A stretch of DNA of 34,252 nt, taken from a virus. Below the pieces are notes generated by a model. That model saw only the letters and a program-made list of their open reading frames with translations, was not told the origin of the DNA and made no database searches. Position 1 is the first letter of the stretch, and the number at the start of each line of letters is the position of its first letter. The DNA is taken from positions 1-34,252 of the IMG/VR virus record IMGVR_UViG_3300029787_000172. The stretch is one strand, 5' to 3'. Shown here piece after piece: positions 1 to 34,252 of the stretch. The translations under genes were made by a program, and so were the position numbers.

Positions 1-119
1 ATTGCGGTGTAAACCTCATGCCGAAGAGTTCCAGCCACCAGAGATATGCTTTCTCCTGCCTCTCTGGATGTGTCGGTTTTGCCCGCCGCAACGGGAATGT
101 CAAAAAGGTCAGGGATCAT
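1..119 (-). CDS. Winged-helix-like small protein, N-terminal part (continues across the circular join)
   Basis: An ATG at 119-117 opens a frame that stays open to base 1 and leaves two bases (AT) of an unfinished codon. The first 39 residues include the stretch GKTDTSREAGESI, typical of small phage DNA-binding proteins whose second half is a winged helix. Joining base 1 to base 34,252 completes an ATT codon and leads in frame into residues 41-94 (see 34087-34252). The start overlaps the stop of the upstream gene as ATGA, so the two are translationally coupled. Role inferred only: probably a small DNA-binding regulator of the leftward operon. The reading across the join is directly visible. 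Confidence 0.7.
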   Translation of the reverse strand, partial: MIPDLFDIPVAAGKTDTSREAGESISLVAGTLRHEVYTA

Positions 120-352
120 AAGTCATCCCCTTGCGACCAAGCATTGATGCGTTCTGTGATTTCGTTCCGCGCTTTGACAACCAGGGCTTGCGCGTCTTCA
201 AAATCTGGCAAGTCGATTTCGTCAAAAACCGTTGTCTGTTGCGCGGCTTTATTTATAAGCCGGATGCAGTTCTCAATCGATTCCTCAACGGCCTTCAAGT
301 CTTGTTCAGACTCAATATAGTCTCTACAAGAAAATTCATCTGATATTGACAT
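116..352 (-). CDS. Small acidic protein of unknown function, first gene of the leftward operon
   Basis: A 78-residue acidic protein. An upstream in-frame ATG at 394 exists, but the ATG at 352 is preferred because GGAGAGAG lies 3 bases before it and the predicted promoter -10 box at 384-389 would put the transcript start (about 377) downstream of 394. The sequence is largely helical with many Glu and Asp and no motif I recognise. As the first gene behind the leftward early promoter it should be expressed early. It ends in an ATGA overlap with the winged-helix gene. Confidence 0.7.
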   Translation of the reverse strand: MSISDEFSCRDYIESEQDLKAVEESIENCIRLINKAAQQTTVFDEIDLPDFEDAQALVVKARNEITERINAWSQGDDL

Positions 353-383
353 TTGCTCTCTCCAAAGCGGTTTTGATGATTTG

Positions 384-411
384 ATAATAAACATTTTGTT
401 GCACCCGTCAA
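384..411 (-). promoter_or_regulatory. Leftward early promoter with an operator in its spacer
   Basis: On the minus strand TTGACG (411-406) and TATTAT (389-384) are separated by 16 bases, each matching 5 of 6 sigma-70 consensus positions. The spacer contains AACATTTTGTT (390-400 on the plus strand), an AACA-N3-TGTT dyad also found in the divergent rightward promoter. Expected start is about 377, giving a 25-base leader with a Shine-Dalgarno before the ATG at 352. A repressor on the dyad would block polymerase directly. Confidence 0.6.
390..400. promoter_or_regulatory. Candidate operator OL (AACA-N3-TGTT)
   Basis: AACATTTTGTT matches the pattern AACA-N3-TGTT and lies in the spacer of the leftward promoter. 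Its centre is 40 bp from the matching site in the rightward promoter. The likely ligand is the HTH protein encoded at 453; this is inference. Confidence 0.5.
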
Positions 412-417
412 TAGCTC

Positions 418-446
418 TTTACACAAAAAAACAAATTGTTTATAAG
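418..446 (+). promoter_or_regulatory. Rightward early promoter; predicted leaderless transcript
   Basis: TTTACA (418-423) and TATAAG (441-446) are 17 bases apart, each 5 of 6 to consensus. The -10 box ends 6 bases before the ATG at 453, so transcription should begin at or within a base or two of the start codon. No Shine-Dalgarno precedes that ATG, which agrees with leaderless translation as known for lambda cI from PRM. An operator dyad (429-441) occupies the spacer. Confidence 0.6.
429..441. promoter_or_regulatory. Candidate operator OR (perfect inverted repeat)
   Basis: AAACAA-A-TTGTTT is a perfect 6+6 bp inverted repeat between the -35 and -10 boxes of the rightward promoter. Its core AACAAATTGTT shares AACA-N3-TGTT with the site at 390-400. 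The placement suggests autoregulation of the adjacent HTH gene. Confidence 0.55.
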
Positions 447-452
447 CAATCT

Positions 453-641
453 ATGACACATTCTTTATTCATCGAAATTTTGGGCGGGACCACCGCCGTT
501 GCACGGGCGCTAGACGTTAGCCCCCAGAACGTCACGAATTGGAAGCGAAGGAGTATTCCCTGGAAATACCGCTTTCGCATGGTTCGGATGGCTGAGATAA
601 AGAACGTCAGAATACCAGATAAATTCATGGAGTCACGATGA
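453..641 (+). CDS. YdaS/Cro-type helix-turn-helix repressor
   Basis: A 62-residue protein. Residues 10-32 (GGTTAVARALDVSPQNVTNW) read as the helix-turn-helix of the YdaS/Cro family: a short helix, 'ARALDVS' turn and 'QNVTNWKRR' recognition helix. The upstream ATG at 381 is rejected because it precedes the predicted promoter. The gene is the first on the rightward early transcript and probably represses both divergent promoters through the two AACA-N3-TGTT sites. It has no Shine-Dalgarno, consistent with a leaderless mRNA. Its stop overlaps the next start as ATGA. The family call is firm; the operators and regulatory targets are inferred. Confidence 0.8.
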   Translation: MTHSLFIEILGGTTAVARALDVSPQNVTNWKRRSIPWKYRFRMVRMAEIKNVRIPDKFMESR

Positions 642-1060
642 AGAGGTGCAAGCGCGACACTGTGTTCAGCCAGCTTGTGCGGGAGCGGTCTAATTGGACT
701 TGTGAGCGTTGCGGTTGCTACGTTCCCGAAGGCGAACGCCAGCGGCTTCATTGCAGCCATATCGTTTCGAGAAAATATCGGCGGTTACGGTGGGAACCAA
801 TTAACGCCGTGGCGCACTGCGCTATGTGCCACAGCCACCTAACAGATAGACCGCATGAATTTGGGCGGTGGGTTGATGAGACTTTAGGCCGTAGCGTTTC
901 GGATAGGTTGTCGGAATTGTCCCAGCCCATCGGTAAGTATTCAAAGCCACAGCTTGAAGACATTTATCAGAATTTAAAGGCCAGCCTGAAGCAGATTCAA
1001 ATGCAACGGGCCGACGGCGAAACGGGTCGGCTTGATTTTGAGAGTCCCTATGGAGAATGA
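638..1060 (+). CDS. HNH endonuclease-like protein (NinG/Rap-like zinc HNH)
   Basis: A 140-residue protein with the layout of a small zinc HNH nuclease. C22xxC25 and C61xxC64 form the likely zinc site, with H41 (in CSHIVSRKYRRLRW), N56 and H65 as candidate His-Asn-His metal/catalytic residues. The spacing resembles phage NinG/Rap-type recombination nucleases, but I cannot separate that from other HNH families by eye. It follows the repressor with a 4-base ATGA overlap, so it is an early rightward gene. The C-terminal 45 residues are charged and helical. A role in recombination, processing of branched DNA or host-DNA attack would be inference. Confidence 0.7.
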   Translation: MKRCKRDTVFSQLVRERSNWTCERCGCYVPEGERQRLHCSHIVSRKYRRLRWEPINAVAHCAMCHSHLTDRPHEFGRWVDETLGRSVSDRLSELSQPIGKYSKPQLEDIYQNLKASLKQIQMQRADGETGRLDFESPYGE

Positions 1061-2651: not shown

Positions 2652-2858
2652 AAAAGGTTTGGTGGTTGCAACTGAATGTAGTATAAAAAGATACTCTGAG
2701 AGAATATATGTTGGTATTTTGGCTTAGATGGTGGATCAGTTAGGATAGCGACCTAGCGCCAGTCTAAGCAAGCTGTGAGGACAAGGGCAGTCTGGCTAGT
2801 CAAATTTTGACCGCCTCGCCGTTGCAGTAAGGGGGATCGCAAGCCCCCACGTTTTTTT
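2652..2858 (+). ncRNA. Second structured non-coding block, ending in tandem terminators
   Basis: About 200 bases without a gene. A weak promoter-like TTGGTG (2659-2664), 17 bases, TATAAA (2682-2687) precedes it, though the -35 match is poor. It holds a small hairpin AGTAT/ATACT (2681-2696). A long composite hairpin follows: GCTTAGA/TCTAAGC (2722-2728 with 2763-2769), TGGTG/CGCCA (2729-2733 with 2757-2761) and TTAGG/CCTAG (2740-2744 with 2752-2756). A GTCAAA-T-TTTGAC palindrome lies at 2799-2811. Two consecutive intrinsic terminators close it. The layout resembles a short terminated leader RNA such as lambda 6S from pR', or a put-type antitermination RNA. I do not recognise a named RNA family. 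Confidence 0.45.
2831..2858 (+). terminator. Intrinsic terminator 1 (upstream of the late genes)
   Basis: GGGGG (2831-2835) pairs with CCCCC (2844-2848) around an 8-base loop, followed after three bases by seven T (2852-2858). It is the first of two tandem terminators directly before the late operon. Confidence 0.75.
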
Positions 2859-2878
2859 GCCCCTCTGGGGCTTTTTTT
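2859..2878 (+). terminator. Intrinsic terminator 2 (upstream of the late genes)
   Basis: GCCCC (2859-2863), loop TCT, GGGGC (2867-2871) and seven T (2872-2878) form a textbook rho-independent terminator. The first late gene starts 11 bases later with no room for a promoter, so late transcription must read through both terminators. Confidence 0.85.
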
Positions 2879-2889
2879 ATGGGAAAATC

Positions 2890-4188: not shown

Positions 4189-5337
4189 ATGGAAGTAATC
4201 GAAAAAGAGGTTACGGGGTTGATCCCCTATGCCTCTAACTCACGGACACACGATGACGCTCAAGTGGCTCAGATTGCCGCGTCGATAAAGGAGTTCGGGT
4301 TCAATAACCCTGTGCTTATAGACGAAACGGGTGGCATCATAGCGGGACATGGACGTGTCCTAGCGGCAAGGAAACTCAGCCTGGATAAAGTGCCAACCAT
4401 TGAATTGGCGCACCTGACTCCAAACCAACGCAAAGCATATGTCATTGCAGACAATAAGCTGGCGTTAAATGCGGGTTGGGATATGGAGATGCTCTCCCTA
4501 GAGATGGGGGACTTAGACAAGGAAGGGTTTGACCTTTCGCTGATTGGTTTTGATGACAACGAACTGGCGGAAATACTTGCAGACAAGAATGAAGGCTTAA
4601 CCGACCCCGACGAGGTGCCTGACCTACCTGACGAGCCTGTTACAAAAGAGGGTGACGTTTGGTTGTTGGGAAAGCACAGATTGATGTGCGGCGATAGCAC
4701 TAGCATCGATGCGGTTGATAAGCTGATGGATGGGGTAAAAATTGATTTAGTCCACACTGATCCTCCGTATGGCATGAACGCAGTTTCTAAGAGCGGCGTT
4801 TTATCTAAAACATACAAAGCCGACATAATCGGTGATAACAACGCAGACGTTGCAAAGGATGCGTTCAATCTGATTTACGGGATGTTTCCAGACGCCAAAC
4901 ATATTTGGTGGGGCGCAAATTATTATAGCTCCGTTCTTCCTGATAGTGAGTGTTGGATGGTGTGGGACAAGAACAACGGCAAAAGCGATCAGACAGATTG
5001 CGAATTGGCGTGGTCAAACTTTCGGAGCGTTGTGCGCCAGTTTACGCAAGCGTCAGAAAAAACAAACCGTGTCCACCCGACGCAGAAGCCCGTCAGCCTC
5101 ATGGAATGGATTATTAAGCGGTTCAAATTGTCGGCTAAGTCTATTGCGGATTTCTTTGGCGGGTCAGGGTCAACACTTATTGCAGCGGAGATACATAATA
5201 TTCCCGCTTTTGTTATGGAATACGACCCCGCGTTTTGTGATGTTATTATAAAACGCTGGCAAAACTTTACGGGCGAAAAGGCAAAGCTGGAGGATAGCGG
5301 TCAATACTTCCCGTCTATAAAAGCTGATGCCGCGTAG
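4189..5337 (+). CDS. ParB-like nuclease-domain/DNA N-methyltransferase fusion
   Basis: A 382-residue two-domain protein. Residues 1-95 form a ParB/Srx-type domain with the G48-G-I-I-A-G-H-G-R56 signature. Residues 155-365 form an N6-adenine/N4-cytosine methyltransferase with motif IV TDPPYG (190-195), 'HPTQKP' (296-301) and S-adenosylmethionine motif I DFFGGSGST (321-329). Motif IV before motif I marks the beta class, to which CcrM of Alphaproteobacteria belongs. Such fusions are common in phages next to terminase genes. Likely role: methylating phage DNA, either against host restriction or to mark DNA for packaging. Preceded by a GGAG ribosome site; overlaps the small terminase gene by 11 bases. 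Confidence 0.9.
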   Translation: MEVIEKEVTGLIPYASNSRTHDDAQVAQIAASIKEFGFNNPVLIDETGGIIAGHGRVLAARKLSLDKVPTIELAHLTPNQRKAYVIADNKLALNAGWDMEMLSLEMGDLDKEGFDLSLIGFDDNELAEILADKNEGLTDPDEVPDLPDEPVTKEGDVWLLGKHRLMCGDSTSIDAVDKLMDGVKIDLVHTDPPYGMNAVSKSGVLSKTYKADIIGDNNADVAKDAFNLIYGMFPDAKHIWWGANYYSSVLPDSECWMVWDKNNGKSDQTDCELAWSNFRSVVRQFTQASEKTNRVHPTQKPVSLMEWIIKRFKLSAKSIADFFGGSGSTLIAAEIHNIPAFVMEYDPAFCDVIIKRWQNFTGEKAKLEDSGQYFPSIKADAA

Positions 5338-5677
5338 TAAGGGCCAGCCAGCGTTTAAGCCAACGGACGAAGAGCGGAAGCTGGTTGAACAAATGTCGGC
5401 GGTGGGCATACCGCAGTCCAATATAGCAATGGTTCTCCGCGATGGCATTGATGACAAAACGCTGAGAAAACATTTCCGCAAGGAACTAGACACAGCGGCG
5501 ACAAAGGCCAATGCAAAAATAGGCGGCACGTTATTCAACAAGGCCGTCAACGGAGACACGTCAGCGGCAATATTCTGGGCCAAGACACGGATGGGCTGGA
5601 AAGAGACAAGCGTTCAAGAACACGCTGGCGGCGTTGCGGTTAGCATCCAGTTAAATGCAACTAAATCTGGAAATTGA
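5327..5677 (+). CDS. terS: Terminase small subunit
   Basis: A 116-residue protein directly before the large terminase. It starts with an HTH-like region (EERKLVEQMSAVGIPQSNIA ... DDKTLRKHF) suited to DNA binding. It then has the hallmark segment NGDTSAAIFWAKTRMGWKE (about 80-98), matching the 'N.tAaiFWLKtR.gW.e' pattern of small terminase subunits. It would recognise the packaging site and load the large subunit. The start lies inside the methyltransferase gene and the end overlaps terL by 23 bases, so all three are one translational unit. Confidence 0.85.
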   Translation: MPRSKGQPAFKPTDEERKLVEQMSAVGIPQSNIAMVLRDGIDDKTLRKHFRKELDTAATKANAKIGGTLFNKAVNGDTSAAIFWAKTRMGWKETSVQEHAGGVAVSIQLNATKSGN

Positions 5678-6962
5678 TTTCCCAGAGGTATTCGCGCCTC
5701 TGATAAAGCCAGCCAGATACAAAGGCGCATGGGGTGGCCGTGGGTCAGGCAAGTCTTGGTTCTTTGGCCTGATGACGGTTATAGCGTTGTTAGAGGGCAA
5801 GCGGGTCGTTTGTCTCAGGGAAGTGCAGAACTCCATCAAGGACTCTGTTAAACAGCTTATTGAAGACGTTATCTTGCGTCACGGGCTGGAAAGTCTGTTT
5901 GATATTACGGAGCAAGAGATACGGGGGCCGCAAGGGTCAACGTGTTTGTTCCGTGGCCTACATAATTCAACGTCAGCGTCGATCAAATCGCTAGAGGGTG
6001 TGCAGATAGCGTGGCTTGAAGAAGCCCAGACGATTAGCCAGCGCAGCCTTGATTTGCTAACCCCGACGATACGGGCAGACGGTTCGGAGTTGTGGTTTAG
6101 CTGGAATCCTGTGTCCAGGCTGGACCCGATTGACAAGCTGTTGAGACGGTACACGCCAGAGGATTCGATTATTGTTGAGTCTAATTGGCGGGATAATAAG
6201 TGGTTCCCTGCTTCTCTGAAGGCAGACATGGACCGGGACCGTTCTCAAGACCCAGAGAAGGCGGCTCACATTTGGGATGGTGAGTATGCGTCTGTGACGG
6301 GTGGGGCGTACTATGCCGCGCTCATATCCGATGCAAGAAAAGCGGGTCGGATTGGAAAAGTTGAGTATGACCCTGACTTGCCTGTCAGTAGTGCCTGGGA
6401 CTTGGGCATTGGCGATAGTCTTGCCATTATCTTATGGCAGCAAGTAGGGAACGAGATTAGAGTTATTAATCACTACGAGAACCACAGCCAGCCTTTGCCG
6501 CATTATGTGAAGTGGCTGAAGTCGCTGGACTACAAGGTAGAGCTTGATTGGTTGCCTCATGACGCAAGGGTTAGAGAGCTAGGCACGGGTTTAACTAGGG
6601 TCGAGGTTCTCAGACGAGAAAAGCGCAACGTGAAAATTGTGCCAGCCCACAAGGTAGACGATGGGATAAACGCTGTTCGGGAGCTTCTCCCGATAATGCA
6701 CTTCGACGCTGATAAGTGTGAGTATCTCTTGGAGTGCTTGATGCAGTATCGGGAAGATTACGACGAGCGGCTGTTGACTTTAAAAAGTCGGCCCCTGCAC
6801 GATTGGACAAGCCACTCAAGTGATGCGATGCGGTATATGTGCATGGCCTACCGGGAAGACAGACCGGAGCCTATAAGGAAGGTTCCAGAGTTTATTGAGC
6901 GTGAGCCATTAACAATCAATGAGTTGTTTGAAACCATTGATGAAAAAAGGACAGAGTTTTGA
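5655..6962 (+). CDS. terL: Terminase large subunit
   Basis: A 435-residue packaging motor of the PBSX/Terminase_3-6 type. The ATPase has Walker A GGRGSGKS (27-34) and Walker B IAWLEEA with the catalytic Glu (118-124). The RNase H-like nuclease has D249 in 'AWDLGIGD', 'LPHDAR' around 304, and 'HDWTSHSSDAMRY' (D390). The length is normal for the family. It translocates DNA through the portal and cuts concatemers. A circularly closing contig fits headful packaging, though that is not shown by this gene alone. The stop TGA overlaps the TTG start of the next gene. Confidence 0.95.
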   Translation: MQLNLEIDFPEVFAPLIKPARYKGAWGGRGSGKSWFFGLMTVIALLEGKRVVCLREVQNSIKDSVKQLIEDVILRHGLESLFDITEQEIRGPQGSTCLFRGLHNSTSASIKSLEGVQIAWLEEAQTISQRSLDLLTPTIRADGSELWFSWNPVSRLDPIDKLLRRYTPEDSIIVESNWRDNKWFPASLKADMDRDRSQDPEKAAHIWDGEYASVTGGAYYAALISDARKAGRIGKVEYDPDLPVSSAWDLGIGDSLAIILWQQVGNEIRVINHYENHSQPLPHYVKWLKSLDYKVELDWLPHDARVRELGTGLTRVEVLRREKRNVKIVPAHKVDDGINAVRELLPIMHFDADKCEYLLECLMQYREDYDERLLTLKSRPLHDWTSHSSDAMRYMCMAYREDRPEPIRKVPEFIEREPLTINELFETIDEKRTEF

Positions 6963-7254: not shown

Positions 7255-7541
7255 GCAACCAATCCCTGGTGCAGCAGAGCGTCCGTGACCTGACAGGCAC
7301 GGCACACACCTATATGGGAGATTGGAACGCGCTGTTTGATCTCAACAACATTCCAACGGGATCATTTGCGGGTCGGATGTTGGCGTGGCGTAATAAGATG
7401 CAAAGTGCGTGGGACAACGCAGTGTGGGACCGGGCTGAGTGGGGAGCAAACGCCGAAGGGTATACCAACCTTAACGAGGCGTTACAGTCTATTGCTGACA
7501 AAGAAGGCGTGTACAACTGGAACTCGGTGCAGTCGATATGA
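7251..7541 (+). CDS. Small duplicated head-module protein, copy B
   Basis: A 96-residue paralogue of the gene at 6959, with an extra Trp/Asp-rich insert in the middle (SAWDNAVWDRAEWGANAEGY). It shares 'TGT', 'GDW/GDF', 'LAW.N', 'NLNEALQSIA' and 'NWNSVQSI'. It sits between terL and the portal gene and overlaps the portal start by 4 bases (ATGA). The tandem arrangement implies a local duplication followed by divergence. Probably structural or a portal/terminase accessory, by position only. Confidence 0.75.
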   Translation: MSNQSLVQQSVRDLTGTAHTYMGDWNALFDLNNIPTGSFAGRMLAWRNKMQSAWDNAVWDRAEWGANAEGYTNLNEALQSIADKEGVYNWNSVQSI

Positions 7542-9466
7542 GCGAACAAATTGAAAGCATGGGAGAGTTTGAGGGTTCCGCTGGCATGGCCCGATATTGG
7601 GACATTGAGCTAAACGCGGCGAGTGCGGAAGAAAGAGATTGGCGCGACGAAGGCGAGGAAGTCGTTGACCGCTATCGCGCCGACCCTGAGATGTCTCTTA
7701 TTGGCCGGGAAAAGAAATTTAATATTTTATGGTCGAACACTGAAACCCTAAAGGGTGCGTTGTTCGCAAGGATGGCAAAGCCTGACATTCGCAGACGGTA
7801 TTTAGATCGTGACCCGGCTGGCCGACAGGTGGCTGAATTGCTTGAAAGGGCGTTAGAGTATTCGTCTGATGTTTACGACGAAAGAGAGATTATCGCGGGT
7901 GCGATAGAGGATTACTTGTTACCGGGCCGTGGCGTGGTCTGGGTGGTCAAGGAGGACATTATGATTGATGTCCCGACCTATGACGAGTTTGGTTTTCCAA
8001 CCGGCGAAACCGTTGAGGAAATAGGCGACCAGCGCGTGTTCTTTGAATATGTGCATTGGGAAGATTACAGAGAAAGTCCGTCAAAGCGTCCAGAGGATGT
8101 CCGCTGGAAGGCGCGGCGGCATTTGATGACACGGGATGATCTGCGGGAGCTTACGCCTGACCAAGCAGACAGAGTGCCATTGAATTGGAGTCCGTCAGAC
8201 GGCGGTGACTATGCTTCAGAAGATGTTTTCCGACGCGCAGAGGTGTGGGAAATCTGGTGCGAAGAAACCCGTAAGCAATATTATGTGGTGCAAGGCTACC
8301 CGGCATTATTAGCCGAAGAAGAAGACCCTTATGAGCTTGAAGGGTTTTTCCCAACGCCGAAGCCGATAGTGTCATTCAAAACGAACGGGTCGGGAGTGCC
8401 GATTCCAGAGTTCCGGTTGTATGAAGACCAAGCCGATGAGCTAGACAGAATTACCACACGAATCGCAAAGCTCACGGACGGGTTACGGCGTAGGGGTATT
8501 TATGATGGGTCGGTTCCTGAGTTGGCAAAACTTGCAGAGGCGGCTGACAATACTTTCGTGCCAGCCGATAATTATGCGAATTTGGCTCAAAAGGGCGGTT
8601 TGGCCAATGCGATGCAGACTGAGGACATATCGCAAACGGCTGGCGTATTGTCCGGTCTTTACCAACAGCGGGCGCAGCTTATCCAGACTATTTATGAGGT
8701 CACCGGGATAAGTGACGTTCTTAGAGGCGCAACAAATCCAAACGAAACGGCAACGGCCCAAAGGTTAAAGGGTCAGTTTGGGTCAATGCGCCTTAAACAG
8801 AGGCAAGACCAAGTTCAGCGGTTTATTCGTGACCTGTACAGAATACGGGCTGAATTAATTGCGGAACACTTCCAGCCCTACATTTTGCAAAACATGACCG
8901 GGCTACAAGTCACGCCTGAGATGCTTCAGATCATGCGCTCCGACAAGTTGCGGTCCTATCGGATTGACATAGAGACAGACTCGACGGTGTTTGAAGACGC
9001 TCAGATGGAACGTCAAAGCCGCATAGAGTTTGTGAATACGCTAGGGTCGTACATGGAGCGGGCGTTGGGTGTCGTTCAAGCGGCCCCCGAATTGACCCCG
9101 ATAGCGTTCCAGGCAATGGAGTTTATGGTGCGCGGGTTTAAGATTGGCAGGGAGTTTGAAGACCTTATTGACGAGGCCAAGCAGAACGCCATGCAGTCCC
9201 TACAGATGCAACAGCAACAAGGCCAACAGCCTGACCCGGCGATGATGATGGTTCAGCAAAAGGCGCAGTTGGATCAAGCTGAGTTGCAACAAAAAGGCCA
9301 GTTGAAGTCGGCAGAGATGCAGCAAGATATGCAGATTGAACGGGCGAAGATGAATCAGGAAGCTCAGATTGACCGCGAGAAGATGATAGTCGATGCAGAG
9401 ATTGCCAGAGAGAAGATAATGACCGACGCCGAGGTTGAGCTAATGAAAGGCACGGGGTTGATGTAA
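7538..9466 (+). CDS. Portal protein (podovirus type)
   Basis: A 642-residue protein directly downstream of terminase with the features of podoviral portals. The N-terminal region (about 50-110) has 'KKFNILWSNTETLKGALFARMAKPDIRRR' features. A central wing/stem region follows (VSFKTNGSGVPIPEFRLYEDQADELDRI, with 'TGISDVLRGATNPNETATAQRLKGQFGSMRL' near 395-425). A long charged coiled-coil barrel-like tail runs from about 545, rich in Gln, Glu and Lys. It would form the dodecameric ring that the terminase docks onto and through which DNA passes. The stop overlaps the next start (TAATG). Confidence 0.9.
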   Translation: MSEQIESMGEFEGSAGMARYWDIELNAASAEERDWRDEGEEVVDRYRADPEMSLIGREKKFNILWSNTETLKGALFARMAKPDIRRRYLDRDPAGRQVAELLERALEYSSDVYDEREIIAGAIEDYLLPGRGVVWVVKEDIMIDVPTYDEFGFPTGETVEEIGDQRVFFEYVHWEDYRESPSKRPEDVRWKARRHLMTRDDLRELTPDQADRVPLNWSPSDGGDYASEDVFRRAEVWEIWCEETRKQYYVVQGYPALLAEEEDPYELEGFFPTPKPIVSFKTNGSGVPIPEFRLYEDQADELDRITTRIAKLTDGLRRRGIYDGSVPELAKLAEAADNTFVPADNYANLAQKGGLANAMQTEDISQTAGVLSGLYQQRAQLIQTIYEVTGISDVLRGATNPNETATAQRLKGQFGSMRLKQRQDQVQRFIRDLYRIRAELIAEHFQPYILQNMTGLQVTPEMLQIMRSDKLRSYRIDIETDSTVFEDAQMERQSRIEFVNTLGSYMERALGVVQAAPELTPIAFQAMEFMVRGFKIGREFEDLIDEAKQNAMQSLQMQQQQGQQPDPAMMMVQQKAQLDQAELQQKGQLKSAEMQQDMQIERAKMNQEAQIDREKMIVDAEIAREKIMTDAEVELMKGTGLM

Positions 9467-11306: not shown

Positions 11307-12260
11307 ATGGCGAGTCCAAACTCTTCCTTTACGGAAATCGTGACTACTACTCTCCAGGGCTATTCAAAAGTCCTGGCGGATAACGTCACGAACCATAATG
11401 CCCTTATGCGTCACATGGACGAAAAGGGTAACAAGCAACCCGCTACGGGTCGCACCATTGTCCAAGAACTCGAATATGCCGTGAACTCCACTTCCAAGTG
11501 GTATTCGGGCTATGAGGTTCTTGACACGTCACCAAGCGACGTTTTCACCGCTGCGGAGTTTAACTACAAGCAGTTGGCCGGGAACGTGGTCATTTCGGGT
11601 CTTGAAGAAGTGCAAAACAGTGGCCGGGAAGCCGTTCACAATCTTTTGAAGTCTCGGATCAAAAACCTTGAAAAGTCCCTCAAAAACACCTTTGCCACAG
11701 CGATGTACGCTGACGGCACGGGTACGGACGGCAAGGAAATTGGTGGCCTTCAGAGCCTAGTGGCTGACGCTGGCACGGGTACGGTTGGTGGGATTAATTC
11801 CTCAACCTATACTTTCTGGAAAAATCAGATTTATGATTTCTCCGCAGAGGGTGTCACGGCATCAGCAACAACGATCCAGAACGCCATGAACTCGCTTTGG
11901 CTGACAACTATCCGTGGTGCGGATAAGCCAGACGTAATCACGGCTGATTCGACTTACTTCAATTTCTATTGGAGTAGCTTGCAGACCAATCAGCGGTTTG
12001 CTTCGGATCGTAAAGCTGCGGCTGGCTTTATGAACTTGCTCTTCATGGACGCCCCGGTGTTCTATGACGATCAAGCGCCTTCGACGCATATGTATATGCT
12101 GAACACCGATTACTTGTTCATGCGCCCCGCTTCGGGCCGTGAGTTTGTGCCTCTCGGTGAGAAGGCTTCTGTCAACCAAGACGCAATGGTAATGCCGATG
12201 GTTTGGGCCGGGAACATGACTTGTTCCAACCGCTCAGTCCAAGGCGTCATTGTAGCTTAA
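11307..12260 (+). CDS. Major capsid protein
   Basis: A 317-residue protein directly after the scaffold gene and before a likely decoration protein and a strong terminator, the standard setting for the major coat gene. It begins SPNSSFTEIVTTTLQGYSK and has 'ELEYAVNSTSKWYSGYEVLDTSP', a long 'SGLEEVQNSGREAVHNLLKSRIKNLEKSLKNTFATAMYADGTG' segment reading as the HK97 spine helix, and 'MLNTDYLFMRPASGREF' near the end. Preceded by AAGGAGTG. By family it forms the icosahedral shell. No protease gene is seen, so maturation cleavage is not expected. Confidence 0.9.
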   Translation: MASPNSSFTEIVTTTLQGYSKVLADNVTNHNALMRHMDEKGNKQPATGRTIVQELEYAVNSTSKWYSGYEVLDTSPSDVFTAAEFNYKQLAGNVVISGLEEVQNSGREAVHNLLKSRIKNLEKSLKNTFATAMYADGTGTDGKEIGGLQSLVADAGTGTVGGINSSTYTFWKNQIYDFSAEGVTASATTIQNAMNSLWLTTIRGADKPDVITADSTYFNFYWSSLQTNQRFASDRKAAAGFMNLLFMDAPVFYDDQAPSTHMYMLNTDYLFMRPASGREFVPLGEKASVNQDAMVMPMVWAGNMTCSNRSVQGVIVA

Positions 12261-22354: not shown

Positions 22355-23605
22355 ATGGCCTGGAATGGTAGCGGAGCGTTTAGTCGTACAAACGGGACTC
22401 ACACAGGATCGACAGTGTGGACCCAGGACAAGGACGCGGGAACCAAGATTGTATCGAATAGGCATGATACCCATGACCAAGACCTGAGTGATGGCATCAA
22501 CGCCTGTATCGCTAAAAACGGCGAGAACTACATGACGGGTGCGCTTGACCTCAACGGTCAGGTGATAGAGTTGGACGCCGATGCGGATACAAAAATCGGG
22601 GCAACGGCTGACGATAGAATTGACATCACTGTTGGCAACTCAATTACGGAGCGGATTGGACACGATTCCACGAACTCTAGTGCCTTTCACCTTGTTGCCC
22701 CAGCGGCTTTGACGGCGCAAGCGAACACGGCTTATGCACACGTTAATGTGGCCCCTGCGGGGGCCGTTACAGTGCCATCAGGCACCACGGCGGTGGTTTC
22801 CTCCCTGGAGGTAAACGAACCCAATATAACGGCCACAGGGACCGTCACAGCGGCGGCGTCTTTGTATGTGTCTGGCGCACCGTCTGAGGGGTCAAGCAAT
22901 TATGCCCTGTGGGTCGATGCGGGGAATGTGAAGTTTGATGCCGACCTGACGTTAGGGGCTGGTGCAGAGGCCGACGTAAAAATAGTTTATGACGGCAATG
23001 CAAAAGACTTCTATGTAGGTTTGGATGATAGTGCCGACAAGCTGGTGGTCGGGGTTGGTTCGACCGTAGGCACAAACGCCATAATGACCCTGGACGATGA
23101 TTCTGTGACGATAGGTGACGGGGCAGAAGTTGACACCAAGGTCGTATTTGATGGGAACGCTCAAGACTTTTACATAGGGCTGGACGATTCCGCTGATGAT
23201 CTTGTATTTGGTCAGGGGTCAACGGTCGGCACCAATGTGGCGTTTGCGATTGATGAGAACCAGCTAACCAACTTCAGCCATGCGGCGATTGGGTCTACAC
23301 AAACGGCCTCAATCTCTGGAAGCACGGTCCTCGATTTCCAGACTTACCAGAACTTCATCTTGACGTTTGGCGGTGCGGTTACTCTTGCCAACCCTTCAAC
23401 GGAAGCGGTGGGACAGTCTGGGTTTATTATAATTATCCAAGACGGGACCGGGGGCAGAACTCTCGCTATCGGAACCGATTACGAGACAGCGGGAGGGGCG
23501 GGGCTAACAATTTCCACGGCAGCTAATGCGGTTGATGTTGTGCCGTATGTGGTAAAAGCAGACGCATCCATTCAGTTGGGTGCCGCTCAGTTGGCGTTCG
23601 CATAA
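22355..23605 (+). CDS. Tail fibre/virion fibre protein with internal repeats
   Basis: A 416-residue protein. The N-terminus 'MAWNGSGAFSRTNGTHTGS' then 'NRHDTHDQDLSDGINACIAK' is the usual start of podoviral fibre proteins that dock to the tail. From about residue 200 there are two copies of a roughly 50-residue unit: 'DVKIVYDGNAKDFYVGLDDS' and 'DTKVVFDGNAQDFYIGLDDS', each followed by 'STVGTN'. The C-terminus is strand-rich. Most likely the adhesin shaft or a fibre connecting to the larger protein downstream. ATG 22,355 follows an AACGGAG ribosome site. Confidence 0.75.
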   Translation: MAWNGSGAFSRTNGTHTGSTVWTQDKDAGTKIVSNRHDTHDQDLSDGINACIAKNGENYMTGALDLNGQVIELDADADTKIGATADDRIDITVGNSITERIGHDSTNSSAFHLVAPAALTAQANTAYAHVNVAPAGAVTVPSGTTAVVSSLEVNEPNITATGTVTAAASLYVSGAPSEGSSNYALWVDAGNVKFDADLTLGAGAEADVKIVYDGNAKDFYVGLDDSADKLVVGVGSTVGTNAIMTLDDDSVTIGDGAEVDTKVVFDGNAQDFYIGLDDSADDLVFGQGSTVGTNVAFAIDENQLTNFSHAAIGSTQTASISGSTVLDFQTYQNFILTFGGAVTLANPSTEAVGQSGFIIIIQDGTGGRTLAIGTDYETAGGAGLTISTAANAVDVVPYVVKADASIQLGAAQLAFA

Positions 23606-26148
23606 TGCCTATATGGTCACCAGCGTTTTTCGGGTCCGGTGCGGGATCAACGGGGTATGTTGTCGAGGACGCTATCTGGCTGGATGGGTCGGCTGACTAT
23701 CTAAGCAAAGCTGTATCAACAACGCAAAGCTCAACAACTGCGTGGTCACTTTCTATGTGGTTGAAAGTTGACACTAAAAATGCGTCACGTCCTATTTGGT
23801 CGACACCCTCCAACCTCACGATGGGGGCATTGCAATCATCTGGAGAGGGTTATCAAGATAAAATTCGTTTCTATGGAGACAATTTAGATACCCGCACCGA
23901 CGCCGTTTTCAGAGACCCGTCAGGTTGGTTTAACGTAGTGTGGGTATGGGATTCTGCAAACGGAACTCAAGCGTCCCGAGCTAGAACTTATATTAACGGC
24001 TCAGAAGCGTCTACGACAGGGACAAAATCCGTAACTTCAAGCCAAGCCACTGACTTTATGAACACAGGTCAAACCACGGACCTATTCAAGCAAACTGGAG
24101 CATCGCTTTATTACTCAGGATACGCCGCTGAAATCATATTTGTGGACGGTGTAGCTTCGACGGATTGCAGTCAATTTGGGGAGCTAAACGATGCCGGTGT
24201 ATGGGTTCCTGTTAATCCTTCTGGATTGACCTATGGAAATAACGGTTTTCTGCTTCAGTTTAAGCAAACCGGCAGCGGCCAAGATGCAAGCGGTATTGGT
24301 GCCGACACCTCTGGAAAAGGTAATCATTTTGCGGTAGGTGGTGGGGCAATACAGACTAATCAAGTCACCGACACGCCGACTGACTCTGATGACACTGGGA
24401 ACCACTGGACTTTAAATCCACTCCAATCCAATAACACCCTAACAAATGGGAATCTCGCATTCACTGGTCCGACCAATTATTCAAATTATTCAACTGCGCC
24501 AGCATTGCCTATGACGGGAAAGTGGTACTGGGAGATCAAAGCTGTTGGTTCTGCTCCGATTACATCTAGCGCGAACTGGGATACCTATGTTGGTGTTTTG
24601 CGAACAGATGTAGCTATTCCCTCTGGATCACAAAACTCTAACGCAAACCTTTGGGTTTGGGGAAATATGGCAAAAGACGGAAGTGGAGCCAATGGACAAA
24701 AACACAACAATAGTAGCGTTAGTTTTGTCCCCGCTGTAAACTTTGGCAATAACAGTATTATGATGATTGCCGTTGATATGGATGACTCAAAGATTTACTT
24801 TGGGAATGACGGCACTTGGGCTGGATCAGCAGACCCCGCCGCAGGAAGCAACCCTGCGTTTACTAGCTCTGATAGCAGTTTTGGCTCGCACCAAGTCATG
24901 CCATATCAAACTCTGTATGCGGACAGTGCCACATATAATTTCGGAGCTACCGCATTCGCTCATACTCCGCCTACTGGCTTCAAAGCCCTCAACACCGCCC
25001 AGCTCCCGGCTCCGACTGTTGCAGACCCAAGTGCGTATTTTGGTATTTTAACGTGGCAAGGAAACGGCACCGATGACACGATTATTCGTGACGGTGAAAC
25101 TGTTGATGGTGTAGCTGTTGGAGGCGCATTGAAAGACAAGGGTGGTACTGGAACACGTTGGACTCCAGATTTTTCTTGGATTAAGAACAGAGCGGATAGT
25201 TCTACAAGTTGGGTCGTTTCAGATGTAGTTAGAGGCGTAACAAAAAATCTTGCTACAGATACCGATGCCGATGAAGACGATGCAACTCGAACTACTGACT
25301 TTGTAGCTGGAGGAATTGAGGTAGGAAACTCTAACTTTTCAAATAAAGATGGTAAGAAAACGGTTGGTTACTTTTTAAAAGCTGGTGGCTCCCCATCAGA
25401 CAATACCAATGGTAGTATTACAAGCAGTGTCAGTGTAGCAGATCATGGTGGTTTTAGCATTGGAACGTACACAGGAAACACAACTACAAGTACCACAAAA
25501 ACAGTAGGTCACGGACTATCTCGCAAGCCGTCTTGGGTAATTTGCAAGATGAGGAGTGGAAGTGGACTTCAAACTTGGACAGTGTGGCAAGAAGATATTT
25601 TTGCTGGAGCAAGTAATGAATATATAATTTTAAACTTAGCTAATGCTAAAACAAACGGTGCGTCATTTAGTAGTACGGCACCTTCATCTACTGTATTTAC
25701 TGTAGGTAATGATGCAACAAACCAAAATGGAGACACCTTTGTTTTCTATGCTTTTGCTAAAACGCCGGGGCTAATAGCAAGCGGCTCTTATACAGGCAAC
25801 GGCGTTGCCGACGGGCCATATGTTGTTGTAGACGATGGGGCATCTGGATTTTTGCCAGCATTCGTAATGTTTAAAAATATTAATGCGGGGCAGTCTTGGG
25901 AGATTCACGATTTAGGCAGAGAGCCATACAATATTACTCCCGAAGGAACTTTTGCTGGACGATTGCAACCAGATACAGATTCAGCCGAAAGTACAACATT
26001 TGTCCTTCAAAAACACGCTAACGGTTTTAAAATTGTAACTGGAGGAGCATCTACAAATGGTGGCGGTAATAAATTTATTTATCTAGCATTTGCCGAGAAT
26101 CCATTTGGTGGCGGTGGCGACGGTGTAGCGCAAGCAAAGGCGCTGTGA
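23605..26148 (+). CDS. Large receptor-binding fibre: LamG/ConA-like, SPRY and DUF7483-like regions
   Basis: An 847-residue protein, the largest here. Residues about 24-180 resemble a LamG/concanavalin fold ('IWLDGSADYLSKAVSTTQSS', 'WSLSMWLKVD', 'AEIIFVDGVAS'). Residues about 275-465 resemble SPRY ('GKWYWEIKAVG', 'IAVDMDDSKIYFGNDGTW', 'YQTLYADSATYNFGA'). From about 473 the sequence follows the marine-phage DUF7483 pattern ('YFGILTWQGNGTD', 'PDFSWIKNRADSSTSW', 'HGLSRKPSWVICKMR', 'KFIYLAFAENPFGG'). Carbohydrate- or protein-binding modules in this order indicate host recognition. The 25,200-26,100 part looks more AT-rich than its neighbours, as fibre tips often are after exchange. Confidence 0.8.
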   Translation: MPIWSPAFFGSGAGSTGYVVEDAIWLDGSADYLSKAVSTTQSSTTAWSLSMWLKVDTKNASRPIWSTPSNLTMGALQSSGEGYQDKIRFYGDNLDTRTDAVFRDPSGWFNVVWVWDSANGTQASRARTYINGSEASTTGTKSVTSSQATDFMNTGQTTDLFKQTGASLYYSGYAAEIIFVDGVASTDCSQFGELNDAGVWVPVNPSGLTYGNNGFLLQFKQTGSGQDASGIGADTSGKGNHFAVGGGAIQTNQVTDTPTDSDDTGNHWTLNPLQSNNTLTNGNLAFTGPTNYSNYSTAPALPMTGKWYWEIKAVGSAPITSSANWDTYVGVLRTDVAIPSGSQNSNANLWVWGNMAKDGSGANGQKHNNSSVSFVPAVNFGNNSIMMIAVDMDDSKIYFGNDGTWAGSADPAAGSNPAFTSSDSSFGSHQVMPYQTLYADSATYNFGATAFAHTPPTGFKALNTAQLPAPTVADPSAYFGILTWQGNGTDDTIIRDGETVDGVAVGGALKDKGGTGTRWTPDFSWIKNRADSSTSWVVSDVVRGVTKNLATDTDADEDDATRTTDFVAGGIEVGNSNFSNKDGKKTVGYFLKAGGSPSDNTNGSITSSVSVADHGGFSIGTYTGNTTTSTTKTVGHGLSRKPSWVICKMRSGSGLQTWTVWQEDIFAGASNEYIILNLANAKTNGASFSSTAPSSTVFTVGNDATNQNGDTFVFYAFAKTPGLIASGSYTGNGVADGPYVVVDDGASGFLPAFVMFKNINAGQSWEIHDLGREPYNITPEGTFAGRLQPDTDSAESTTFVLQKHANGFKIVTGGASTNGGGNKFIYLAFAENPFGGGGDGVAQAKAL

Positions 26149-28413: not shown

Positions 28414-28854
28414 ATACTTACATTAATTAGCAGCGTTCTGGGCTTTGGTACGAGTTTTCTCCCCAAGGTATTAGGCTTCTTTGAGGAGAAGCGCGACCAA
28501 GCCCATGAACTTGCCATGATGGACAAGCAGACAGAACAAGCCATCCAGCTTGGCAATATTAAATTGCAGCATATGGACATTGAAGCGGACATTCGGGAGA
28601 CTGAAACGCTTCATAAGGAACACGCCACCATTACAAGAAAGTCATCTCAATGGTGTGTAAACCTTAGTGCGTCTGTCAGGCCGGTAATCACATATTGCGT
28701 GTTTTTTTCCTACTTTACATTGGTTCTGTTGTTGGCATTTGGTTACATCGACAACGCAATGTTTTCTTTGTTGTGGGCCGCTGATGGAATGGCCCCTCTA
28801 TTTGCCGGAATCGTAAGTTTTTGGTTTGGCTCCAGAACCTTTAATAGAAAATGA
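28414..28854 (+). CDS. Holin-like membrane protein with an apparent AUA start
   Basis: The first ATG in frame is at 28,516, but in-frame sequence upstream encodes 'LTLISSVLGFGTSFLPKVLG', the expected N-terminus of this holin-type family. A perfect AGGAGG (28,403-28,408) lies 5 bases before ATA 28,414. I therefore place the start at that ATA (146 residues). Two membrane helices follow ('VITYCVFFSYFTLVLLLAFG' and 'LLWAADGMAPLFAGIVSFWF'), with a charged helical region before them. The family resembles 3TM/GTA-type holins. It overlaps the endolysin start (ATGA), as holin genes often do. Confidence 0.65.
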   Translation: MLTLISSVLGFGTSFLPKVLGFFEEKRDQAHELAMMDKQTEQAIQLGNIKLQHMDIEADIRETETLHKEHATITRKSSQWCVNLSASVRPVITYCVFFSYFTLVLLLAFGYIDNAMFSLLWAADGMAPLFAGIVSFWFGSRTFNRK

Positions 28855-29345
28855 CGTTCTTTGAGTCGCTTTTAGAGAAACACGACCCTTCCTGGGACGG
28901 CCACATTAATGAGGCTGGATTGGAAATCGTGCGTCGATTTGAATCATGGGTTCCAACGCCGTACCGTTGCCCGGCGGGACGCTGGACAATTGGTTACGGG
29001 GCAACATGGGATATGGAAGGAAATCCTGTTGGCCCTGATCACCCCGCTCTTACTAAGGACGAGGGTGAGCTTCTCTTGCGAAAAGAAATCACGCACGTTG
29101 AGAAAGGAATTAGACGCCTTATCAAAGCGGAGCTAACTGAGAATATGTTTTCCGCTCTGTGCAGTTTCGCCTTTAACGTAGGCACGGGCAATCTGCAAAG
29201 GTCGACCCTCCGCATGAAATTAAATCGGGGGCAGTATGAAGACGCGGCTGACGAGTTCCCAAAATGGAGACGGGCGGCTGGCCGAATCCTCAAGGGATTG
29301 GTTCGCCGCCGCGCCTCAGAACGAGCCTTGTTCCTAGCCGAATGA
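28851..29345 (+). CDS. Endolysin, GH24 (T4/P22-type lysozyme)
   Basis: A 164-residue muramidase. 'FESWVPTPYRCPAGRWTIGYG' gives the catalytic triad spacing E31-x8-C40-x5-T46; Cys in the middle position, instead of Asp, is a known GH24 variant. 'NMFSALCSFAFNVGTGNLQR' and 'FPKWRRAAGRILKGLVRRRA' are the usual later motifs. No signal peptide, so it needs the holin for export. The last gene of the rightward unit; its stop touches the stop of the leftward unit. Confidence 0.92.
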   Translation: MTFFESLLEKHDPSWDGHINEAGLEIVRRFESWVPTPYRCPAGRWTIGYGATWDMEGNPVGPDHPALTKDEGELLLRKEITHVEKGIRRLIKAELTENMFSALCSFAFNVGTGNLQRSTLRMKLNRGQYEDAADEFPKWRRAAGRILKGLVRRRASERALFLAE

Positions 29346-29513: not shown

Positions 29514-30709
29514 TAGTGGACACTCCGATGTTGCAGTCTGTAATCTTTGGTTATTACGCCTAGCTTTGGGTCGCCGCGCAAATGCGCGTTAATCCATACC
29601 CGCCGACCATCTTGATATTTTCGCCAATGGCCGCGCACTGAGTGTTGCCGCCGCGAACTTTCATTCATGGAGCTAAACCCTTTAGGAAGGATTGTGATCC
29701 CCTGCCATTTTGGAAGATCAATGGCTAGTTCTATGTGAGCATTACCTTTGCGGAACTTGCCAAATTTGTATCGGCGGCTTGCGCTTTCGCGGGGCGTTTT
29801 AATAATCCAATCGAAATTCAGCAACCCCATCACGGTAATAAGAAACCGTGAATCACCCCTGGTCATCTCTGTGCCAATATTTTGCATATTTTGAGCAGCG
29901 TTTCTTGACCATTCTTGGTTTGCAGTATCCACAAAAAAGTCGATGCCTGGGCCTTGGACAAGCCTAGTGTGGGTTACAAGGTCATACAGTTCGGCGTCTT
30001 TGTCGCGGTCTAACACGCTATGCGTAGCGCCGTGCCGTTCTGACCAGATGTCGCTGATGGTATTGCGCTGCACCCACCACGCGCCCAGACATTCGGAAGC
30101 CACTTGTATTTCGCTGTTTCGGAAATCGGCTACCATTTCATCTGTCGCGGGGCTGTAAATACCCTCTAGAAATTTCCGATAATGTTCCATTGTGTAGCCG
30201 CTGCCGTCTTGCATTGCGGCAAATTCAATGGATAGCGGACCCACAACGATGTTTTCGTTATCATTGAAATCTATTATTGGCGTGGCAAGATATGCGTCTT
30301 GTTCGTATCCCGTATAATGTCCGTTGTTGAGAAGATACCCGACTCGCGGCGTTAGATTGTCGCGGTCAATATTTGTTTCAAGTCCAAACTCATTGCTCAC
30401 GCGCTCAAGCGTGTCTTGGCGAATTAACTCGTTCCACTCAATCCATACGTTCTCGTGGGGCAATCGGAACAACTTAAACTGATCTATCAAGTCTTGCGCC
30501 GAAGACCGCATGGATGTCTCCATAGCGAAATCCACAAACCTATCGTCTAATACAAATCGCGTGGCTTGTCGGACATCTTGATACAGGCTGGAAGCCCGAC
30601 GTTTAAGACGTGGCGTTCTCAACAAATCGGGGCTTCTAACCACAAGCCCTTTTTTGGGATTGGCGAGGGCCGCAATAGTTTCGTCGGCCAGTGTGAATGT
30701 GTCAGTCAT
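29513..30709 (-). CDS. Large protein of unknown function at the end of the leftward operon
   Basis: A 398-residue protein from ATG 30,709 (a GTG at 30,712 is adjacent; both follow GGGGGGAG). It has 'LADETIAALANPKKGLVVRS' at the start, a middle of mixed helices and strands, and a basic C-terminus 'RQHSVRGHWRKYQDGRRVWI' then 'NAHLRGDPKLGVITKDYRL'. The 'H.vRGHwR......vWI..H.rGd' ending recurs in phage and plasmid proteins without known function and could be a nucleic-acid-binding motif. Size and conservation mark it as a main leftward product rather than filler. No enzyme motif recognised. Confidence 0.6.
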   Translation of the reverse strand: MTDTFTLADETIAALANPKKGLVVRSPDLLRTPRLKRRASSLYQDVRQATRFVLDDRFVDFAMETSMRSSAQDLIDQFKLFRLPHENVWIEWNELIRQDTLERVSNEFGLETNIDRDNLTPRVGYLLNNGHYTGYEQDAYLATPIIDFNDNENIVVGPLSIEFAAMQDGSGYTMEHYRKFLEGIYSPATDEMVADFRNSEIQVASECLGAWWVQRNTISDIWSERHGATHSVLDRDKDAELYDLVTHTRLVQGPGIDFFVDTANQEWSRNAAQNMQNIGTEMTRGDSRFLITVMGLLNFDWIIKTPRESASRRYKFGKFRKGNAHIELAIDLPKWQGITILPKGFSSMNESSRRQHSVRGHWRKYQDGRRVWINAHLRGDPKLGVITKDYRLQHRSVH

Positions 30710-30718
30710 CACTCCCCC

Positions 30719-32027: not shown

Positions 32028-32122
32028 CACCGCTTTCCTTCCTGGGGTCCGCACCGCTCACAGTAGCCGCGTTTTTTTAGAATGCCGCCGCACTTCTTGC
32101 AGTGACCATATGGGGCTTTCAA
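32027..32122 (-). CDS. 31-residue zinc-ribbon microprotein
   Basis: A TTG start at 32,122-32,120 overlaps the SSB stop (TTGA) and the frame ends in a TGATG overlap with the next gene, so it exactly fills the gap. The sequence [20 protein letters not shown] contains two CxxC pairs (Cys 8/11 and 21/24) ten residues apart, a minimal zinc ribbon or knuckle. Such ribbons bind nucleic acid or protein. Coupling to SSB suggests a role in DNA metabolism; unproven. Confidence 0.65.
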
Positions 32123-32550
32123 AACGGAATCTCATCGTCTAAATTGCCCACTGAGGCGCTTGAAGCATCTTCTTGGGGTGGTGGGGCATCGGATGAAACA
32201 ACGGGGTCTTGTGGGGCGTTAGAACGGCTATCCAGCATTTGCAGGGTAGAGTTGTATGCAGACAGAACGACCTCTGTGGTGTATCGGGTGTTCCCTGATT
32301 TGTCATCCCACTTACGGGTTTGAAGCTGGCCCTCAAGATAAACTTTGCTGCCTGACTTTAAAAACTTCTCAGCTACCTCAATAATCTTTTCATTAAAGAT
32401 AACCACCTTATGCCATTCGGTTCGTTCCCCTGTTTTCCATTTTTCAGAGGTAGCAACCGAAAGGGTGGCAATTTTCTTTCCCGATTGGGCATAACGAACT
32501 TCGGGGTCTTTGCCCAAATTTCCTACCAAAATAACTTTATTTACACTCAT
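32119..32550 (-). CDS. ssb: Single-stranded DNA-binding protein
   Basis: A 143-residue OB-fold protein: '[20 protein letters not shown]', '[13 protein letters not shown]', '[20 protein letters not shown]', '[17 protein letters not shown]'. It ends with the acidic tip DDEIPF, which in bacterial SSB recruits partner proteins. Normal length for the family. Directly follows the exonuclease gene with an ATGA overlap. It would protect ssDNA made by the exonuclease and at forks. Confidence 0.95.
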
Positions 32551-33188
32551 GCTGCATTCTCCAATTTTATGAGGCGGTCAATTTTTTCGTTCATTTCAAA
32601 AAGAAAATCGACAACCATGTTTTCCAGTTCTTGGATGCGCTCCTCGTCGCGCTCCACGCGCTTAATAAATAACTGACTTGCGGGCGGCATCCTTGGGTCG
32701 AACGAAACAAAGTCGCACCACTCGCGCTTAGTGCAAGCCATCTGCCATTGCATTTGATCTATGTATTTTTTAGGGATCGACCCGCCCAACAACGTGTCTA
32801 TGTGCGTGTGTGTTTGGGGGCATTTGATCTCAACCAGACCATTCTCAACGCCATTTTTTCCAGCGGCTGACACAAGGCGGTCTGGTGAGCATCCCGCTTG
32901 GTCAATGCTTGGGTGATCTACAAAGCCAACCAGTTCCAGTTCCGCATCCGTATAGAAAGAATAGGCATCGGCAGCTTGCGGCTCTGTGTCGGTCCCGTGC
33001 TGCATTGCAGCATTAGAAAAAGATGGCGTGGGTTCGTGCGTTAAACTCTCCGCTATCAACTCCCCCATATACTTCGCCCGTGATGCGCCCCAGCCTGTTT
33101 TTATTTTGGCAGCGACATCACTAATTCGGGATGCGGTGACTTTTCCCAACCGCGCTTGATGCCATTCGGGTGATCCTTGCTCCATCAT
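32547..33188 (-). CDS. YqaJ/lambda-exonuclease-type recombination nuclease
   Basis: A 213-residue protein. '[20 protein letters not shown]' is the conserved opening of YqaJ-like nucleases. E69 in 'HGTDTEP', D103 in 'GCSPDRLV' and E120-x-K122 in 'LVEIKCP' form the PD-(D/E)xK site. '[20 protein letters not shown]' is the usual later motif. It would resect double-stranded ends 5' to 3' and work with the adjacent candidate annealing protein and SSB in phage recombination or concatemer formation. It overlaps both neighbours. Confidence 0.92.
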
Positions 33189-33727
33189 TGTGCCGACCCT
33201 TTGTTCTTCAAAGCGGCTTCGGCTGCGCTGTATTGGTTTGCTGGAATTTGTGCAAATGATTCTACTTTCAAATATGCAAGGAACTTTTTCTTGTTAGCTC
33301 CCACCTTCTCAGCCAGTTGTTCAAGGTGGGCGGCTTCAGCGGCAGTAATAAGTTGGCCTTGTGCGATGGCGCTTTCTACCTCACCAGCCGAAGCGTACTC
33401 TCCCCCATGTAATCCAAAGTTAGCCAACGCTCTGCCAATCGCGGAAGTCTCGCAATTCTCCAGCGCAGACGTTTTATTTACGGGTCCAGCGTTTCGGTCT
33501 TCTTCCGCAAGCCCCGTCGCAACAACATGTTGGTCTTTTGCGATTGTAGCCATAACCCGCACAAATGGGTCGCTTGCGGGCAGGACTTCGGTCATTAGCG
33601 AAAATTCGTGGCCGAAGTGCTTTCGGAATATCTCCACCCTTGTTGCAACTTGGGTGTAGCTTTTCCCTTTAATTTTCACCGTTGGAGCAAGCGTTAGCTC
33701 CGCAATGGCTTCTTCAAGCTGGCTCAT
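33185..33727 (-). CDS. Candidate single-strand annealing protein
   Basis: A 180-residue protein immediately before the exonuclease. It has 'KIKGKSYTQVATRVEIFRKH', a strand-rich middle ('VRVMATIAKDQHVVATGLAE') and 'NKTSALENCETSAIGRALAN' then 'FGLHGGEYASAGEVESA' (84-119), the region that in Rad52/ERF-like phage proteins pairs strands with a helix. The C-terminal part is helical. Operon partnership with a lambda-type exonuclease is the classic setting for an annealing protein (Red beta, ERF, Rad52-like). I cannot name the exact family. A GGGAGAAAG ribosome site precedes ATG 33,727. Confidence 0.55.
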   Translation of the reverse strand: MSQLEEAIAELTLAPTVKIKGKSYTQVATRVEIFRKHFGHEFSLMTEVLPASDPFVRVMATIAKDQHVVATGLAEEDRNAGPVNKTSALENCETSAIGRALANFGLHGGEYASAGEVESAIAQGQLITAAEAAHLEQLAEKVGANKKKFLAYLKVESFAQIPANQYSAAEAALKNKGSAQ

Positions 33728-33893
33728 TGCTTTCTCCCTTATCTAGAATCTTGTTTAGAAGCTGTTGCGCCTCGCGCAATTCTTCCACACACCCTTCGGG
33801 CAGTGGCCCATCGAATTTATCCAAATCTTTCAACACTTGGTTAAGAAGATAGGCGTCATACTCAGGGCCGTGGACTTCGTGCAAATTTGCCAT
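33714..33893 (-). CDS. Small acidic protein of unknown function
   Basis: A 59-residue acidic, mainly helical protein ('HGPEYDAYLLNQVLKDLDKF', 'CVEELREAQQLLNKILDKGE'). ATG 33,893 overlaps the upstream stop as TGATG; a GTG one codon earlier is possible. Ends 14 bases inside the next gene. No motif recognised. Confidence 0.6.
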   Translation of the reverse strand: MANLHEVHGPEYDAYLLNQVLKDLDKFDGPLPEGCVEELREAQQLLNKILDKGESNEPA

Positions 33894-34087
33894 CACGCTA
33901 ACTCATCAGCATTTTCATAGGCCGCGCATCCTTGACGGTAGGGAGCGGCGTTGAGAAAAATGTTTTTCGCGTTGGCTGACCGGATAACAGCCCAGGCCAG
34001 TTGAATGAGTTGCTCTGAGAACAAATGCGGGTTGCTGATAATTCGTCGAGCGTTCCGCAATTCACGAATGATGAATTTTTTAGGCAT
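33893..34087 (-). CDS. Small basic protein of unknown function
   Basis: A 64-residue protein with a basic N-terminus (PKKFIIRELRNARRIISNPH) and a helical 'FSEQLIQLAWAVIRSANAKN'. ATG 34,087 shares its first base with the stop of the winged-helix gene (TAATG) and follows GGAGAGGA; the longer start at 34,099 is therefore rejected. Function unknown. Confidence 0.65.
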   Translation of the reverse strand: MPKKFIIRELRNARRIISNPHLFSEQLIQLAWAVIRSANAKNIFLNAAPYRQGCAAYENADELA

Positions 34088-34252
34088 TATCCTCTCCATA
34101 CGATTTCGTTGTTGCCAAAAGCATTTGGTCGGCGTTCGCCCGAATCAAAAATGTAACCGTGCTTTTTAAGTTCGGATGTTCGCGGCTGAATGCCGCTGTA
34201 CGGCCTGTTGAGGCCAGCGGCAAGTTCGCTTGTGGTCATGCCGCGCTCATCA
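34087..34252 (-). CDS. Winged-helix-like small protein, C-terminal part (continues from base 1 across the join)
   Basis: From base 34,251 leftward the frame reads 'DERGMTTSELAAGLNRPYSG', 'IQPRTSELKKHGYIFDSGER', 'RPNAFGNNEIVW' and stops at TAA 34,089-34,087. 'GMTTSELA ... R.SELKKHGYI.dsG.Rr' is a clear winged-helix half: recognition helix followed by a wing with conserved Ser, Gly and Arg. Joined to residues 1-39 at bases 119-1 it gives a 94-residue protein. The join splits an ATT codon. Confidence 0.75.
   Translation of the reverse strand, partial: DERGMTTSELAAGLNRPYSGIQPRTSELKKHGYIFDSGERRPNAFGNNEIVWRG

Follow-up and report, generated by a model that had tools for sequence, protein, structure and literature searches.

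The virus record IMGVR_UViG_3300029787_000172 of IMG/VR very probably represents an uncultured phage that has a P22-like portal and whose genome, nearly complete here, has a circular gene map; assembly cut it within a small early gene and left it about 9 nucleotides (nt) short of closing. The window analyzed here is that entire record, 34,252 nt long. Both of its ends lie in one leftward gene, referred to below as the cut gene, whose product belongs to PHROG 1123, a family of unknown function, and is winged-helix-like in appearance.

Read across the 34,252/1 junction, the cut gene has 39 codons, a split codon that base 34,252 completes, and 54 further codons before a TAA at 34,087-34,089, which together give a joined product of 94 residues. 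An earlier note on this DNA had described this in-phase frame, and had also reported that the TAA overlaps the start of the next gene; both descriptions are correct, and the overlap with the in-frame ATG of the next leftward gene is a single shared base. The cut gene sits in a tight leftward operon, with stop/start overlaps on both sides. The same note had held that the two halves form one family. In agreement with this, the joined protein scores 60.6 bits against PHROG 1123, with its residues 14-93 (of 94) aligned to positions 14-95 of the 112-position profile, compared with 44.7 bits for the right piece alone. The left piece alone has no PHROG match at E <= 0.001.

The argument from the frame is less secure. 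It had been claimed that a random cut would not yield an in-frame join, but when pairs of points in this genome were picked at random and joined, 729 of 4,000 joins (18%) gave an equally good open reading frame (ORF), a pass being an ATG-initiated ORF that is at least 94 amino acids long and has 39 or more codons to either side of the join. True neighbouring positions, used as a control, pass the same test in 518 of 1,500 cases, and the test therefore discriminates poorly. Frame continuity alone is weak evidence of closure, and the PHROG family match is stronger. More generally, an in-frame join by itself is poor evidence that a metagenomic record is closed.

When the joined protein was searched against IMG/VR, a check of the kind proposed in the earlier note, 53 loci were returned with full-length homologues among them, and the close ones span the join. 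For comparison at the DNA level we used the four closest full-length matches (L002-L005, 84-92% protein identity) and three further loci. In all four close relatives the cut gene is in one piece, flanked by the DNA of both window ends, and the positions equivalent to window 34,249 and window 1 are 12 nt apart, versus 3 in the record. The two matching flanks measure 2.0 kb (92% identity) and 2.1 kb (95%) in L002, 3.0 kb and 1.05 kb in L003, and 3.0 kb and 2.1 kb in L004; those in L005 are shorter and broken, at 78-87% identity. Among the further loci, L050 matches residues 1-24 at 96% identity and stops 46 bases in from the start of the window, not at the join, and L051 and L047 have no DNA match in the same comparison.

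Gene order in larger records points in the same direction. Ten such records were mapped with 47 proteins of the window by tblastn, and six of them (G001, G004, G008, G009, G010 and G011) have terminase and head genes in common with it. In four of these six (G001, G004, G008 and G010) the gene order of the window continues through the join; G009 and G011 stop before reaching it. In G001 the order of 42 of the 47 window genes is kept through 0.98 of a turn and both record ends are in the fibre gene, and an exact-pattern search for other viral records over the join found one stretch, again in the contig of G001. The remaining four records share little with the window (two genes each in G006, G007 and G012, one in G013). 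Since L002 lies in G001 and L005 in G004, the distinct records that support the join number six: L002/G001, L003, L004, L005/G004, G008 and G010.

Given that the two window ends are near each other in every one of the close relatives and that gene order crosses the join in larger records, we conclude from these comparisons that the ends are neighbours in nature. Relatives cross the join and the window spans every other link; the map therefore closes, and on this basis the gene map is circular and the gene content essentially complete. A different view is that a larger genome gave rise to the window as a linear contig, with ends that meet in frame by chance, as the frequency of equally good random joins would allow. 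This is extremely unlikely, because no more than 12 nt separate the ends in any of the four close relatives, because L002-L004 match the window for about 1-3 kb to either side, and because the gene order closes. Comparison with relatives can thus establish the near-closure of a metagenomic record without terminal repeats.

The closure does not appear to be exact. All four close relatives have 9 extra bases (3 codons) where the window ends meet, and the gap, as aligned, is positioned within one base of the join. The simpler reading is therefore that the record is about 9 nt short of closing. The earlier proposal of a complete circular or circularly permuted genome holds with respect to the circular map and the essentially complete content, but not with respect to exact closure. 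Given the three extra codons of the relatives, the natural protein probably differs from the joined one both in the codon at the join and in its length, which is 97-98 residues in relatives against 94 here.

Alternatively, the record could be exactly closed, and the virus could have a real 9-nt in-frame deletion at what is an arbitrary cut point; the reading frame is kept over the join, and the protein reads through. We consider this quite unlikely in view of three observations. First, all 49 of the aligned homologues are longer than the window at the join: by six residues in 44 of them, by three in 4, and by only one residue in the 36% identical L051 (counts read from the printed alignment of 49 of the 53 loci, with L050 and L052-L054, which are cut by contig ends, left out). 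Second, in a 3,213-column alignment over the join with L002-L004 (about 3.2 kb), no internal gap other than the 9-nt one at the join is restricted to the window, and its coincidence with the cut would be expected about once in 3,000; the other single-sequence indels in that alignment (9, 1 and 7 nt) are at the edges of the extracted pieces. Third, two of the last three window bases differ from the bases on which the four relatives agree.

The packaging genes suggest why a record of this type would assemble as a circle. The only solved relatives of the large terminase subunit (TerL) at E <= 1 are 4IDH and 4IFE, both named "Gene 2 protein" (E 2.9e-42, residues 11-216), which we take to be gp2 of Sf6. 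The portal matches PF16510 (P22_portal) with 35.3 bits against a cut-off of 26.1, and is matched by ten phage records, the Myxococcus phages Mx8 and Mx9 among them. With a TerL like Gene 2 protein and a P22-like portal, headful packaging is likely, and would give circularly permuted virion DNA and circular assemblies. Similarly, the portal type suggests that the virus is short-tailed. Sf6 is listed among the headful groups in a published scheme (PMC5000459).

In this scenario, concatemeric phage DNA would be packaged headful by an Sf6-type terminase, and virion DNA would then be circularly permuted and terminally redundant. The assembly would see a circle and break it at some place, which here would be inside one small early leftward gene. 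A circular molecule in the cell and linear, circularly permuted virion DNA would both give such a circular map. About 9 bases may have been lost in assembly or in end trimming, or the gap may mark a variable site between co-occurring strains that was left unresolved, with the assembler stopping on both sides. In de Bruijn assembly, the contig that runs from one branch point to another would stop at the sequences flanking such a variant. It is doubtful that the stop site is biologically special, either as a short segment of the cut gene that varies in length in the population, through gain and loss of codons in a small, winged-helix-like early protein, or as a real terminus, and that it halted the assembler from both sides.

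Another possibility is that the record ends are the true virion ends, and that a 3' cohesive overhang of about 9 nt was removed by end repair of the library. Between the ends there is no overlap but a deficit of about 9 nt, which falls within the size range of short cohesive overhangs. Against this, the assembled relatives L002-L005 (4 of 4) run straight through the site, which is inside a coding gene and more than 5 kb from the terminase genes, and the terminase resembles the Gene 2 protein taken here to be that of Sf6, a headful phage. We therefore find true cohesive ends very unlikely and continue to favor a circular map that was cut by assembly.

A search of the window for exact terminal repeats of 8-1,999 nt found none, and the outermost 3 kb at its two ends have no exact word of at least 12 bases in common, either direct or inverted. 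CheckV takes a direct terminal repeat of at least 20 bp as its criterion for closure (PMC8116208), and the window carries no such repeat. Among more distant relatives, found by their head protein, four of the eight with ends compared carry end repeats, two of 127 nt, one of 126 nt (offset by one base) and one of 99 nt. The CheckV authors ascribe repeats of k-mer size to assemblers breaking circular templates, and the examples that they give in this context include 99, with 127 not named there (PMC8116208).

Several points weigh against a circular map cut by assembly, or against parts of this interpretation. The evidence for adjacency of the ends comes from relatives rather than from reads that wrap around, and neither the window nor any of the ten larger mapped records has an exact end repeat. 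The relatives are other strains, and this virus may have an extra piece of its own at the join. The cut gene has no tblastn match in G008 or G010, both of which support the join by flanking gene order only. Among ten more distant head-protein relatives, only G023, which has end repeats of 127 nt, has a match to the cut gene, and there the homologue is on the strand opposite to the exonuclease; the placement of the cut gene is therefore not conserved at that distance. With regard to packaging, the TerL match to 4IDH/4IFE covers residues 11-216 only, and TerL is matched by as many as 1,827 phage records.

The main genes are listed in Table 1. The rightward genes include, in turn, those for a Cro/YdaS-like regulator, NinG-like nuclease, replication-like protein, ParB-methylase fusion, terminases, portal, head, tail/fibre and lysozyme. 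The single-strand DNA-binding protein, the YqaJ exonuclease and small early genes are leftward. A tRNA search of the window found none, the tyrosine and serine recombinase families (PF00589, PF00239) have no match in it, and an Rfam scan gave nothing at the gathering threshold. An unusual integrase may still be present among the genes that lack a family match. A tyrosine integrase is present in G010, G023 and G024, and neither recombinase family is found in G001, G004 or G008, records whose completeness is not established. The earlier note had considered the content complete and the absences meaningful. This is largely so, but only to within about 9 nt. Near-closure largely licenses statements on what this phage lacks, such as tRNA genes and an integrase of the tyrosine or serine families, and places the genome size near 34.3 kb.

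Table 1. Features of the 34,252-nt window discussed in the text
Feature	Position	Strand	Remarks
Cut gene, N-terminal part	1..119	-	39 codons + 2 nt; ATG at 119; PHROG 1123 family
First gene of leftward early operon	116..394	-	TGA overlaps ATG 119 (ATGA); homologue adjoins cut gene in G001, G004
Cro/YdaS-like helix-turn-helix regulator, first rightward gene	381..641	+	
NinG/Rap-like HNH nuclease	638..1060	+	
Terminase small subunit	5327..5677	+	
Terminase large subunit	5655..6962	+	Terminase_3; solved relatives 4IDH/4IFE
P22-like portal protein	7538..9466	+	PF16510
Major head protein	11307..12260	+	
Tail fibre-like structural protein	23605..26148	+	Both ends of G001 fall in gene
Phage lysozyme/endolysin	28851..29345	+	
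Single-strand DNA-binding protein	32119..32550	-	
YqaJ/RecE-type exonuclease	32547..33188	-	
Next leftward gene after cut gene	33893..34099	-	Alternative start overlaps TAA of cut gene; adjoins cut gene in G001, G004
Cut gene, C-terminal part	34087..34252	-	1 nt + 54 codons + stop

Other loci differ among the related records. A leftward gene of 399 amino acids (29513-30712) is matched by two PHROGs of unknown function only near its C-terminus; searches at E 0.01 in Pfam, at E 1 among solved structures and in viral contigs found no match. It occupies a variable slot: in L002 only 294 nt lie between the flanking matches, in L003 and L004 the slot is filled by other ORFs, and the corresponding stretch of G010 contains a tyrosine integrase. 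At the edge of this slot is a small leftward ORF of 55 amino acids (29346-29513). A block at 29341-29503 has 89-97% DNA identity in L002, L003, L004 and G010, and a 22-nt piece of it recurs in G004 at 4,444-4,465, inside the match of that record to the gene at 20806-22308. We considered this block (29,341-29,503) as a noncoding element and rejected it, because it lies in the small ORF at 29,346-29,513 (- strand).

The rightward gene at 4189-5337 encodes a ParB-like N-terminal part fused to a DNA methylase, with a Pfam ParB match below the cut-off; only 130 of its 382 residues are matched in G001. Before the methylase-terminase cluster is a rightward gene for a protein of 434 amino acids (2857-4161), which is variable (38-78% identity in five records) and has no PHROG (E 0.001) or Pfam (E 0.1) match. 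The rightward gene at 14941-16275 is matched in G004, G009 and G010 and has no tblastn match in G001, G008 or G011, although its neighbours are present there; from this distribution, it appears to be a swappable module between tail and amidase-like genes. A direct repeat array with units of 12/15 nt is found at 20076-20197, inside a gene of 527 amino acids (19226-20809).

Searches with TerL did not lead to a host. A single-protein search of genome contigs gave 22 stretches that matched the pattern, none of them a relative. A search with a diverse alignment gave 475 relatives, and the top one among the best 80 of these 475 is 47% identical (Caulobacter sp.). A megablast search of window positions 1-25,000 against 50,697 phage records had no match, and the best-ranked TerL match in phage records is that of EBPR podovirus 2 (JF412295, 40,628 nt), at 41%.

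The window represents an ordinary phage of a known kind. The observation that drew attention to it is confirmed, and its interpretation is correct in substance but not in detail, as the record does not close exactly and the in-phase join is not diagnostic. It resembles the headful, short-tailed phages of the Sf6/P22 type in its Terminase_3-type TerL, its P22-like portal and its circular gene map, and differs from them in having no match to the tyrosine or serine integrase families. EBPR podovirus 2 has a similar annotated order of small terminase, large terminase, portal, two hypothetical genes and head protein. However, its genome is larger (40.6 kb versus 34.3 kb), and it has no genes between the large terminase and the portal, where the window has two small genes. 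The IMG/VR records G001, G004, G008 and G010 have the same gene order as the window across the join and a TerL identity of 87-99%, but each is broken elsewhere on the circle.

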